A stretch of DNA of 64,000 nucleotides from Bacteroidota bacterium (GTDB taxonomy: Bacteria; Bacteroidota; Bacteroidia; Flavobacteriales_D; Crocinitomicaceae), in assembly GCA_024280295.1 (NCBI GenBank), contig JAJRQK010000073.1:1-64000 (forward strand), given 5' to 3'. The notes under the pieces are model-generated. The model ran no database searches. It had not been told where the DNA came from and saw only the letters and a program-made list of their open reading frames with translations. A program made the position numbers and the translations under genes. The first letter of the stretch is position 1. Each line of letters starts with the position of its first letter. Of the stretch, positions 1,299 through 5,570 are shown in pieces.

Positions 1299-1513
1299 AG
1301 CGTTATTTATAGTAGATAATAGACGCAATTTACAGTTTAGACAACCATTATGGACGTTTTTATCATAAAATTGATCCTTTCTTCCCAACCTTTTAGAATC
1401 GACTGTCGTTATTAGCTTTACGAGAGATTCGGAGATTAAATGAGAGAGAGATAAATTGGATATAATTTAGTAAATTGCGTAAGGACAGTAAAATAATAGC
1501 CTTGAGAAAATCC

Positions 1514-2083
1514 ATGAGCATCACACCAGAAATAATACATCAATGTATTGGTGATGATCGGAAAGCAATTAACATCATGTATGAATATTGTTTTCGCCTC
1601 CTTATGCCCGTATGTTTCCGTTACAATAACAATGAAATTGATGCTCAATCTGCGTATAATTCAGGATTCATTAAAATACTGAAAGCGCTCGAAAAAGTAG
1701 AAAAGAATGTCAACTTCGATGCTTGGGCAAAACGAGTGATGGTGAACACGCTAATCGACGAGTACAGGAAGAATAAAAAATATACTACACGAATAACCAA
1801 AAGCGACAGCGAAAGGGAGTTAGATTACTATTCTGAAGGACAAGCAAATGATGCTGAGAGTAATTTAGGTTACGAGAACATCATGATGCTTGTGCAGGAG
1901 TTACCTATAGCTACTGCACACGTTTTCAATTTGTATGTCATTGAAGGTTATTCGCATAAAGAAATTGGGAGTCAGATGGAAATGTCGGAAGGAACCTCGA
2001 AATGGCATCTTTCGACCGCTAGAAAAATGTTAAGAGAAAAATTAGAACGATTGGAAAATCAGAATCAACGGATGGTGATATGA
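1514..2083 (+). CDS. ECF-type RNA polymerase sigma factor
   Basis: A 189-residue extracytoplasmic-function sigma-70 factor. Region 2 covers roughly residues 15-85 (the FDAWAKRVMVNTLIDEYRK segment is the -10-binding part) and region 4 roughly residues 120-180, with a helix-turn-helix in YSHKEIGSQMEMSEGTSK. There is no sigma-1.1 or region 3, as usual for ECF factors. I prefer the ATG at 1514; the frame opens further upstream at a TTG (1475), which adds 13 poorly conserved-looking residues. The stop overlaps the next start by 4 bp (ATGA), so it is translationally coupled to the membrane protein that is its probable anti-sigma factor. The regulon is unknown, but the coupled gene suggests envelope sensing. 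Confidence 0.92.
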   Translation: MSITPEIIHQCIGDDRKAINIMYEYCFRLLMPVCFRYNNNEIDAQSAYNSGFIKILKALEKVEKNVNFDAWAKRVMVNTLIDEYRKNKKYTTRITKSDSERELDYYSEGQANDAESNLGYENIMMLVQELPIATAHVFNLYVIEGYSHKEIGSQMEMSEGTSKWHLSTARKMLREKLERLENQNQRMVI

Positions 2084-3363
2084 GTTGGAGAGATGAAGAT
2101 ATAGATAAATTGTTTCAAGAAAACGCTGCCAATACATCTTCCGAGTACAAAAATGCGTACTGGAAGGAGTTTGAGGCTGCCTCCCTTCCTATAAATAAAG
2201 GAGGAAAGGATTTTATGTGGGTAGGAACTGCCCTCGTGTTTTTAGGAATAATTACAACAATGTCGGTGTACAACCTTAATGGGAATGTTGAGACTAACAA
2301 CACTGCTACACAATTGGCAAGTAATGGTCAAACAAAAAATACGACGAATAGTTTTGGAGACCAGGTGATAAGAACGACTGATGGAGATGCTGTTAATAGT
2401 AGAAATATCATAAGTGAGAATGGTGAAATAGAAGAAAAGGAGGAGGAGAATACTTCGAATTTAAATAACTCGAAGTTAGATGATTCTCGTGTTTATCAAT
2501 CGAATAATTATTCTTTAAATGGTAGTGCTAAATCAAATTCGCTGGCAACTTTGAAGAGAAACGTGGATATAGGCGAGGATGTATTAGGTAACCCTTTACT
2601 AACTGTGGTTATTCCGTCTGGAGTTGATGATTTACCTTCAGTTAATAACTCTGAAGATCTAGCATATTTTGAGATAAACTCATTATCACCTCGTTCGTTA
2701 CAGAATCAACTTGCTAAATCACAAGCCCCAGAATTCAAATTTAAGATGCCACCAATTGAACTTCGAACAGCAACTTTGCTGTATTTTGAAGTAAACGGCG
2801 GACTTTCAGAATCAATTGTTTCTCCTTCTAATCAGTATTCTAACTCTTTCGGAGCAGGAATAGGTGTTGAACTTCAAAAAAACAAACTCAATTTAACGTT
2901 GGGTGTCAATGGAATTATTTCGAGCCATAACGATATTCAATTGAATCGAAAATCTCTCGTTTACGGGTTTGGCTCTGAAGTGATAAGTACGCAGTTAATT
3001 TACAGTCAAATTTATTCAATTGAAGGAAACATATCCGTTGGGTATAACTTTGGAAAACATGTTTTGAGTCTTGGAATTAGACCTTCTTATGTCGTTGGAT
3101 CGAAAGTCCGTGATAAAAGGGTAGTAAACGATGTTCTCGTACATGATATTCAAGGGTACGGCCACATAGATGGCTTGAAACGATTTGGTTTGAAGCCTCA
3201 AATCGGTTATGCCTATAAATTTAAACATGGGTTTACACTTGGAGGGAATCTTGGTGTTCAAACTCAAGAATCTCTTAATGAAGATTTTATCAATGGGCAA
3301 AACAATAGATTTCCGCTAGATGGACAAATATATTTCAGAAAATCAATACGACTAAGAAAATAG
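2080..3363 (+). CDS. Probable dual-membrane-spanning anti-sigma factor with C-terminal outer-membrane barrel
   Basis: A 427-residue protein with three visible parts. Residues 1-44 are a short charged cytoplasmic segment containing a DEDIDKLFQ helix. One transmembrane helix lies at about residues 45-64. Residues 66-225 are low-complexity and rich in Asn, Ser, Thr and Glu. From about residue 230 to the end there are alternating, amphipathic, Tyr/Gly-rich strands typical of a small outer-membrane beta-barrel. The start overlaps the ECF sigma gene by 4 bp. This architecture matches the dual-membrane-spanning anti-sigma (Dma) proteins described in Bacteroides. The role is inferred: bind the sigma factor inside while the barrel senses the outer membrane. 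The C-terminus ends in basic residues rather than the usual aromatic residue, which is odd for a BAM substrate. Confidence 0.72.
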   Translation: MSWRDEDIDKLFQENAANTSSEYKNAYWKEFEAASLPINKGGKDFMWVGTALVFLGIITTMSVYNLNGNVETNNTATQLASNGQTKNTTNSFGDQVIRTTDGDAVNSRNIISENGEIEEKEEENTSNLNNSKLDDSRVYQSNNYSLNGSAKSNSLATLKRNVDIGEDVLGNPLLTVVIPSGVDDLPSVNNSEDLAYFEINSLSPRSLQNQLAKSQAPEFKFKMPPIELRTATLLYFEVNGGLSESIVSPSNQYSNSFGAGIGVELQKNKLNLTLGVNGIISSHNDIQLNRKSLVYGFGSEVISTQLIYSQIYSIEGNISVGYNFGKHVLSLGIRPSYVVGSKVRDKRVVNDVLVHDIQGYGHIDGLKRFGLKPQIGYAYKFKHGFTLGGNLGVQTQESLNEDFINGQNNRFPLDGQIYFRKSIRLRK

Positions 3364-3366
3364 ATA

Positions 3367-4452
3367 ATGAGAAGAAACGTACATAAGTACTTAATAGCGA
3401 TAGTTGGAGTTTCAGTGATGTTAATAACATCATGTAAGAAGCATTCACCCGATGATATCCAATCAAACAATCCTGTTTTTACAACAGTAGGTGCTTTTGA
3501 TGGTCAAGATTTCTCGCTTGTTGCTGGAGATAATAATGCGTATATGTTCACGATGGTGAATGAGGCGAATGGGGTTAACCTGTATTCTGGAAAACTGACA
3601 GATGGTAATTTTTCAATTGAACTTGGAATTTATGATGGGTTTGTTGACTATCAGACGAAACAGATTTATAGCGAATTGCCTGATGAGTTAATTTTTGCCA
3701 CAACTTCAACTAATGCATTACTTGTTTTAGATAAAGAACTATTTGCAAATGTAAATTTAATTAGTGGAATAAAGTGGTCGATTGATGGTGTAGTGAAGGG
3801 GTACGATTATTTTGAAGTTTATGAACCAGGTATTTACTTAGTTACGGCAGAGATCACCTTTAATGATTCTACAATTGAAACCTTGAGTAGTGAATTGATT
3901 GTTGGCTATCAACGACATGCAAATTTCCAGATTAAGCACTATTTGAATCAGAATGGAATGCTCATGGCTTGGATTGAACATGGAAATGAACCCATTGAGA
4001 AGGTTAGGTGGTTCCTTGATGGAGAACCTATTTCTGATGAACCTCAAGTGCAATTGAGCATTGATCCTCAAAGTTATAACCTCACTGCCGATGTTTCCTT
4101 TGAAAATAGTGTGGTTCGATCAAAGACTATGCTCGTTGATGGATCTTTAAGTGGTAAATTTATTGATGATCTTACGTTTCTTGAGACTGGAACTTTAACT
4201 CTTCAGAATCAAGATTTCAATTTACTGCTAAAGGTTGAGAGTGATAACGTAACGTATTGGTCATCTTACCTAGATAATAATGGAAGCAATGTCGAGATTA
4301 CAGGTGTCACTCATTTTGGGAAAAATCCTGAAGGTGATGAGGTCTACAAGTTGAGCGCACATATTAGTGCAAATGTTTCAAACGCAATTGGAGGAGTTGT
4401 TCATCAAGTGGAGTTCGATGCTGTGTTTGGTATTGCAATTCCGAACGAATGA
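3367..4452 (+). CDS. Secreted lipoprotein in the sigma/anti-sigma operon
   Basis: A 361-residue predicted lipoprotein. The signal peptide is followed by a lipobox ITSC with Cys23, then a KKHSPDD stretch, so it should be lipidated after export. The rest looks like several immunoglobulin/PKD-like beta-sandwich segments (for example the IKWSIDG and VRWFLDGEP strands near residues 135 and 215), but I recognise no named family. It begins 3 bp after the anti-sigma stop, so it is probably co-transcribed and may be a target or partner of that envelope-stress module. Function unknown. Confidence 0.75.
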   Translation: MRRNVHKYLIAIVGVSVMLITSCKKHSPDDIQSNNPVFTTVGAFDGQDFSLVAGDNNAYMFTMVNEANGVNLYSGKLTDGNFSIELGIYDGFVDYQTKQIYSELPDELIFATTSTNALLVLDKELFANVNLISGIKWSIDGVVKGYDYFEVYEPGIYLVTAEITFNDSTIETLSSELIVGYQRHANFQIKHYLNQNGMLMAWIEHGNEPIEKVRWFLDGEPISDEPQVQLSIDPQSYNLTADVSFENSVVRSKTMLVDGSLSGKFIDDLTFLETGTLTLQNQDFNLLLKVESDNVTYWSSYLDNNGSNVEITGVTHFGKNPEGDEVYKLSAHISANVSNAIGGVVHQVEFDAVFGIAIPNE

Positions 4453-4459
4453 AAATGTG

Positions 4460-4467
4460 TACCTTTG
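4460..4467 (+). promoter_or_regulatory. Predicted -7 promoter element for the T9SS cargo gene
   Basis: TACCTTTG matches the Bacteroidota -7 consensus TAnnTTTG. Using the rnpB calibration (start of RNA 5 nt after the final G), transcription would begin near 4472, giving a leader of about 10 nt before the ATG at 4482. The element lies just after the lipoprotein stop codon. Confidence 0.6.
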
Positions 4468-4481
4468 AAAAAAAATAAACC

Positions 4482-5570
4482 ATGCGATTCATTCTTATTT
4501 TAAGCATATTAACTTCTGGAGTATCATTTAGCCAAATTCAATTAACACAAGCTGACTTTGCAGATGGTGGAGACACCATTCGAATGAGTTTAGCGACAGA
4601 TCCAACAATTGATTTTGCCTCTACAGGAACAAATTTCACATGGAATTTCTCATCCCTAGTTGCTGATCAACAGATTCTTCGAAATTTCCGTAATATCAGC
4701 GAAGGTTCAGCTCTTATGACCTTCATCTTTGGGATTTTTGCACCTCCTGCTTATCAAGGAACAAATTTCACGGAAACAGATGCAATTCCTTTAGATCAAT
4801 TGAGTGCTTTTCTGCCAGTTACTATTTCAAACATGAATGTTGTCACCAAAATTGATGCTGCCCAGGTTAATTCAATCGGCTATTCAATGGTTGTTGATGG
4901 TACGGAAATTCCATTTAAATCTGACACCATCGAAACTCGTTACCAATTACCAATGAATTACGGTGATGTGTACACTTCTAATGGCTACACAAACTTGGAC
5001 ATGAACCCAATTCAAAATGCAATTTGGATTCAACACCGCCAACGTAGTAGTAATGTGGATGGCTGGGGATCTATTACTACTCCTTACGGAACGTTTGAGG
5101 CGCTTCGTGTTCGACATGACATTACTGAGGTTGACTCCTTATTTCTGGAAATATTTGGAACACCAACTTGGATAGAATTACCAATCCCCCCAAGTGTTAT
5201 TTATGAATGGTGGACGAATAGTGAGCTTGAACCAATTTTACGAATTACAACATCGGATATTCTAGGAACAACAGCTGTGACAGGGATTGAGTATAAAGAT
5301 ATATACCTTGGCTTAGATGCAGGAGTTGAAGAACAGTCTATCGTGATTGGGATTTATCCTAATCCAGCACAAAATACAATTACACTTAATGGTGTCAGTA
5401 ATCGTTCAAACTATTTGATTATCGATAATCACGGAAAGACTGTCATGTCTGGTGTTATCGATTCACAATCTGATACTATCGATATCCATTCTTTCGCGAA
5501 AGGAACTTATCAAGTGATTATTCGTTCTGAAAACGGTGAGTGGGGAGCTGCCAATTTCGTGAAGCAATAA
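4482..5570 (+). CDS. Secreted protein with T9SS type A C-terminal sorting domain
   Basis: A 362-residue exported protein. Residues 1-17 form a Sec signal peptide (cleavage after SFSQ is likely). The middle is a beta-rich region of no family I recognise. The last 75 residues form a type A T9SS sorting domain: the hallmark IGIYPNPAQN near residue 288, a central strand with a Gly-rich turn, and the terminal SFAKGTYQVIIRS strand. It should be exported by Sec, moved across the outer membrane by the type IX system and anchored or released at the surface. It has its own promoter, so it need not belong to the sigma operon. Confidence 0.85.
   Translation: MRFILILSILTSGVSFSQIQLTQADFADGGDTIRMSLATDPTIDFASTGTNFTWNFSSLVADQQILRNFRNISEGSALMTFIFGIFAPPAYQGTNFTETDAIPLDQLSAFLPVTISNMNVVTKIDAAQVNSIGYSMVVDGTEIPFKSDTIETRYQLPMNYGDVYTSNGYTNLDMNPIQNAIWIQHRQRSSNVDGWGSITTPYGTFEALRVRHDITEVDSLFLEIFGTPTWIELPIPPSVIYEWWTNSELEPILRITTSDILGTTAVTGIEYKDIYLGLDAGVEEQSIVIGIYPNPAQNTITLNGVSNRSNYLIIDNHGKTVMSGVIDSQSDTIDIHSFAKGTYQVIIRSENGEWGAANFVKQ

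Follow-up and report, generated by a model that had tools for sequence, protein, structure and literature searches.

Within a 64,000-nucleotide stretch of a Crocinitomicaceae contig (JAJRQK010000073.1, positions 1 to 64,000; hereafter the window), three adjacent genes probably constitute an autoregulated operon in which an ECF sigma factor is paired with a trans-envelope (Dma-type) anti-sigma factor, and which controls exported and surface proteins. The operon (positions 1514-4452; Table 1) encodes the sigma factor, a translationally coupled 427-aa protein and a lipoprotein, and the sigma start, the ATG at 1514, agrees with the starts of its orthologs. The first-pass annotation of this DNA, made from the sequence alone, had proposed that the ECF sigma gene is overlapped by 4 bp by the second gene and that a lipoprotein without recognisable family lies 3 bp downstream. 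Both descriptions were borne out: the second gene opens at 2080, ahead of the sigma gene end at 2083, the first product carries Pfam sigma-70 regions 2 and 4, and the lipoprotein gene, which starts at 3367, 3 bp past the end of the 427-aa gene (3363), yielded a product with no Pfam or NCBIfam family over the cut-off.

Table 1. Features of the operon and of the 427-aa protein, in window coordinates.
Feature	Coordinates	Strand	Basis or remark
Predicted ECF promoter, CCAACC-N16-CGTT (-35 at 1385-1390, -10 at 1407-1410)	1385..1410	+	invariance in genus
ECF sigma factor	1514..2083	+	Pfam Sigma70_r2 4.6e-12, r4_2 1.6e-11
Predicted Dma-type anti-sigma factor, 427 aa	2080..3363	+	ATGA 4-bp overlap with sigma gene; AlphaFold2 anatomy
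N-terminal cytoplasmic motif, residues 3-35, W.DEDIDKLF...EYK.AYWKEFEA, putative sigma-binding	2086..2184	+	single copy here
Membrane helix, residues 44-64 (signal anchor)	2209..2271	+	hydropathy; helix in AlphaFold2 model
Disordered Asn/Ser/Thr/Glu-rich linker, residues 65-227	2272..2760	+	pLDDT <50 over 68-224
Eight-stranded barrel domain, residues 228-427	2761..3360	+	strands 230-424; fold matches
Lipoprotein, 361 aa, lipobox Cys23, beta domains	3367..4452	+	Cys23 invariance; AlphaFold2

The arrangement is conserved among relatives in the Crocinitomicaceae (order Flavobacteriales). A first search for the 427-aa protein recovered it from 30 of 60 relatives, every one of the same genus, and from none outside that genus. 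Sigma, anti-sigma and lipoprotein genes occur in the same order at about 26 loci of the genus, where the sigma factors are 66-91% identical, and, in the rest of the family, all three stand in order at 24 of 33 loci from other genera. Because the ordered set recurs in this way, the three-gene arrangement is not a product of chance. The 4-bp overlap between the sigma and anti-sigma genes is preserved throughout genus and family. A profile built on 16 members had matches in 116 of 399 genomes of the order, mostly in the same family, and scattered matches in genomes across the class. With the window set aside, all phylum-wide profile loci except one immediately follow an ECF-sigma-like gene on its 3' side, and the proteins that they encode open with a motif and membrane helix of this kind; the exception (L060) is apparently a junk match.

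Cys23 of the lipoprotein is invariant in 18 aligned sequences. Its AlphaFold2 model has a pLDDT of 78, and the only part that stood out in the fold search was residues 183-261, which resemble PKD/Ig domains (Z 10). Despite synteny throughout the genus, the gene that follows (4482-5570), for a protein with a T9SS tail, was not counted as a fourth member of the operon because it has a housekeeping-like TACCTTTG box of its own (4460-4467) in the gap before it. The protein that it encodes resembles the T9SS-cargo family that is the commonest predicted target of the window sigma factor. On the other side of the operon, a rhomboid protease gene (GxSG, GHLSG; 65-859) and, on the other strand, a phosphohistidine-phosphatase-like gene (819-1388) remain in synteny with the operon across the genus.

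Upstream of the sigma gene we found a candidate ECF promoter, CCAACC-N16-CGTY, which is invariant in 15 of 15 aligned loci of the genus, with intervening bases that vary. The window holds one match to this pattern (0.17 expected). Across eleven other genera of the family, the exact site lies 67-257 nt before the sigma ORF in 30 of 33 operons, with ten genera represented among the 30 and some close relatives sharing an identical spacer sequence. It is present even at a diverged operon of another genus (G036), where the sigma factor is 44% identical and the site lies 123 nt ahead of it. Conservation of the promoter ahead of the sigma gene through genus and family is strong sequence evidence that the operon is autoregulated by its own sigma factor. 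The site was not found at the other ECF operons of the same genome, nor at L350 (G019) and L351 (G022), which are second, diverged and paralogous Dma-like operons in genomes of the same genus. By its -10 box alone, the promoter can be likened to the SM6 ECF promoters of Flavobacterium psychrophilum, which have CGT at -10, include an ECF sigma/anti-sigma operon and belong to a case of an ECF sigma factor linked to T9SS genes (PMC9723704). The PorXY-SigP system of Porphyromonas gingivalis (PMC4800418) likewise links an ECF sigma factor to T9SS genes; however, SigP is driven by a two-component system rather than by a trans-envelope anti-sigma factor. Past the ECF promoter and ahead of the start codon lies a second conserved block, GTAAATTRC (1460-1480), which is perhaps part of a second promoter.

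A promoter signature conserved over at least eleven genera predicts a regulon. Whole-genome motif counts were weak by themselves (28 for N15-17 against 25 for the reversed control); a signal emerges only with the N16 spacer, from the genes around the sites and from comparing genomes. In eight operon-bearing genomes of the genus, the N16 site occurs 147 times, the reversed pattern 102 times and the N18 form 68 times. On calls that were based on ORF lengths without a gene finder, and with orthologous sites not independent of each other, 56 of 110 N16 sites examined were intergenic and ahead of an ORF, against 2 of 30 N18 control sites (p 5e-6) and 1 of 25 N16 sites in genomes without a detected orthologous operon (p 7e-6). 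A crude rule with a background rate of 40% finds a signal-peptide-like start in the products of 45 of these 56 downstream ORFs (p 8e-10). We therefore predict that CCAACC-N16-CGTY marks a regulon of secreted and surface proteins.

The same orthologs recur as predicted targets in up to seven species. They include a T9SS-cargo family (seven species; tail domain confirmed), a lipoprotein beginning SCKKENTVWETDW (six species, this genome among them), a small secreted protein (four species), rpoD (three species including this one, with the site about 31-35 nt before the start; L094, L099, L110), a second ECF sigma gene (two species) and a PorP/SprF gene (one species). Since the site is short, some of these listed targets will be chance matches. 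The site ahead of rpoD implies that the switch may feed into housekeeping transcription.

It could be argued that the main reader of the regulon is a different ECF sigma factor, which has the operon as just one of its targets, given that ECF regulons commonly overlap and that the second ECF sigma gene itself bears the site in two species. Yet four genomes of the genus that lack the window sigma (G001, G014, G023, G024; best match 35%) keep other ECF sigma factors while the site stays at background (16 against 33 for the reversed pattern), the other ECF operons of the window's genome are without it, and it tracks operons of the window type through ten other genera. We consider this alternative unlikely, and prefer the sigma factor of the operon as the reader of the site.

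The predicted anatomy of the 427-aa protein matches a description made earlier from the sequence, namely a short cytoplasmic segment, one transmembrane helix, a linker of about 160 residues and a C-terminal barrel of the small outer-membrane type. It matched no Pfam or NCBIfam family over the cut-off, and a PDB sequence search with the anti-sigma and lipoprotein families returned nothing convincing. In the AlphaFold2 model, which draws on an alignment of only 20 sequences, two short cytoplasmic helices (5-16 and 25-34) fall within the N-terminal motif, in which D5, D9, A16, Y23, Y27 and E30 are invariant among aligned relatives. Hydropathy and the model both predict a single hydrophobic helix at 44-64. 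The linker of about 163 residues is 38% S/T/N/Q and 14% D/E; in relatives it spans 122-210 residues and is little conserved in sequence, as expected of a tether. Eight strands follow between 230 and 424 (pLDDT ~80-96), and residues 226-427 match OmpA, NspA, OprF and OmpW with Z 13-15. The barrel thus stood when it was checked against a soluble fold, and probably inserts in the outer membrane.

One rival explanation accepts this anatomy and proposes a cut of the chain in the periplasm, after which the barrel would be a separate outer-membrane protein and the anchored anti-sigma factor would work alone. Three loci of other families (L059, L061, L062) fit such an arrangement in that a sigma gene is followed by a gene for a shorter anchored protein with a linker and then by one for a separate secreted outer-membrane-like protein; these are possibly split versions of the Dma layout. 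The rhomboid protease gene, which looks intact across the genus, is a suggestive upstream neighbour. However, the gene shares in a synteny that is general to the neighbourhood, and in G036 it is missing from the upstream position; we did not retain it as an activating protease. Moreover, barrel and anti-sigma factor remain fused through the family, and linker length is held although linker sequence is not. Separation of the two halves is accordingly improbable, and the continuous trans-envelope chain remains our preferred reading.

A second rival takes the protein for an ordinary one-membrane anti-sigma factor whose C-terminal domain senses as a soluble beta-barrel in the periplasm. The absence of a terminal aromatic residue, already remarked on in the first-pass annotation, is real and extends to the whole genus, whose members have basic C-terminal ends, and Pfam barrel families match only weakly. 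Nevertheless, soluble barrels (Z ~9) rank below the small outer-membrane barrels as fold matches, and, elsewhere in the family, the proteins of several genera do end in F. We regard a soluble domain as very improbable and proceed with a barrel in the outer membrane.

The layout of helix, disordered linker and barrel is that of the published dual membrane-spanning anti-sigma factors encoded in three-gene operons (PMC13088901), as had been suggested for this locus. The closest comparison is Dma2/Das2 of B. thetaiotaomicron (BT_1558/BT_1559; PMC13088901), in which an ECF sigma gene, an anti-sigma gene and a third gene follow one another and Dma2 consists of an N-terminal sigma segment, one membrane helix, a disordered tether and a C-terminal barrel. 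Using PF16301, we fetched two dma2-type operons (L280, L281) from other genomes of the class; both encode sigma, Dma2 and a lipoprotein in this order, and their downstream genes agree with the published description (PMC13088901). Sequence similarity to these proteins is slight: comparison of the window family with the two Dma2 orthologs gave E 3e-4 and a probability of 39%, over the N-terminus and helix only, and the N-terminal motif model scored weakly on L280 (E 0.035). The barrel region was strongly matched by a set of twelve Dma-like proteins, but this match is not independent because the set includes L210, which belongs to the same family of bacteria. In a sigma tree with partial das2 rows, the window sigma, das2 and the sigmas of other short-motif anti-sigma factors split from other ECFs on a 97/98 branch. 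We therefore assign the window protein to the Dma kind by its modelled architecture; homology to the Bacteroides Dma proteins at the sequence level is probable. Loss of Dma2 switches its sigma factor on and strongly induces the operon (PMC13088901), as expected for autoregulation. The same layout and gene order make it highly improbable that the 427-aa protein, instead of inhibiting the sigma factor, serves to activate or deliver it or simply tethers the two membranes.

The systems also differ. The third-gene lipoprotein of the dma2 operon is a DUF4943 protein unrelated to the one described here, the Dma2 barrel has diverged in sequence from the window barrel, and Dma2 targets PULs whereas secreted and T9SS proteins are predicted for the window sigma. 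Dma1 of the Dma1/Das1 pair in B. thetaiotaomicron shares the four-part layout but acts through nigD1 on vesiculation, and Dma3 of the same species carries its sigma as an N-terminal domain (PMC13088901). Any vesiculation role for the window system would be borrowed by analogy from Bacteroides. Few Dma proteins have been described, and studies of them apparently concern Bacteroides only. What is new here is the conserved CCAACC-N16-CGTY promoter, which gives the window operon a defined motif in comparison with Dma2, the regulon that it predicts, and tandem N-terminal motifs in relatives of the window protein. These results suggest that control by trans-envelope anti-sigma factors is not confined to vesiculation or glycan loci and can extend to how much surface and T9SS-exported protein a cell carries.

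We propose that the sigma factor would be held at the inner membrane by the ~33-residue cytoplasmic motif of the anti-sigma factor, which one helix would anchor there while the disordered tether crosses the periplasm to the outer-membrane barrel. Tension, failed assembly or cleavage could relay a change at the barrel, perhaps one that involves the co-encoded lipoprotein, to the cytoplasm, where the sigma factor would be freed. The freed sigma factor would read CCAACC-N16-CGTY promoters, first that of its own operon, including its inhibitor and the lipoprotein, then those of lipoproteins and T9SS-exported proteins and, in some species, of rpoD and the second ECF sigma gene.

The window protein has one copy of the N-terminal motif, as do the proteins of all other genera read. 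Within the genus, and only there, 8 of 25 full-length members (L005, L010, L015, L017, L021, L022, L023, L026) have two to four tandem copies before the membrane helix, each scoring E ~1e-5 to 1e-18 and largely retaining D..(I/L/V)D and Y....(Y/F)W. About three changes in copy number are required on the tree. We came upon no relevant paper on anti-sigma domains in tandem when searching the literature, though that does not show that none exists. Each copy presumably binds one sigma factor. We tentatively suggest that anti-sigma factors of the genus are multivalent, one barrel and tether holding up to four sigma factors, with a single outer-membrane event that frees a burst of sigma factor or sets a threshold for a regulon of exported proteins; on this reading, and just as provisionally, copy number would range from one to four between species and the window protein would be the single-site form. 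The series offers a natural experiment on one membrane sensor that holds one or several sigma factors. A similar N-terminal motif and helix also occurs in two proteins of the window's own genome, each encoded after another ECF sigma gene (L284, G000:C19; L285, G000:C14) and each with a different, apparently non-barrel C-terminal part; since they share the short motif and helix, the N-terminal module may be general.
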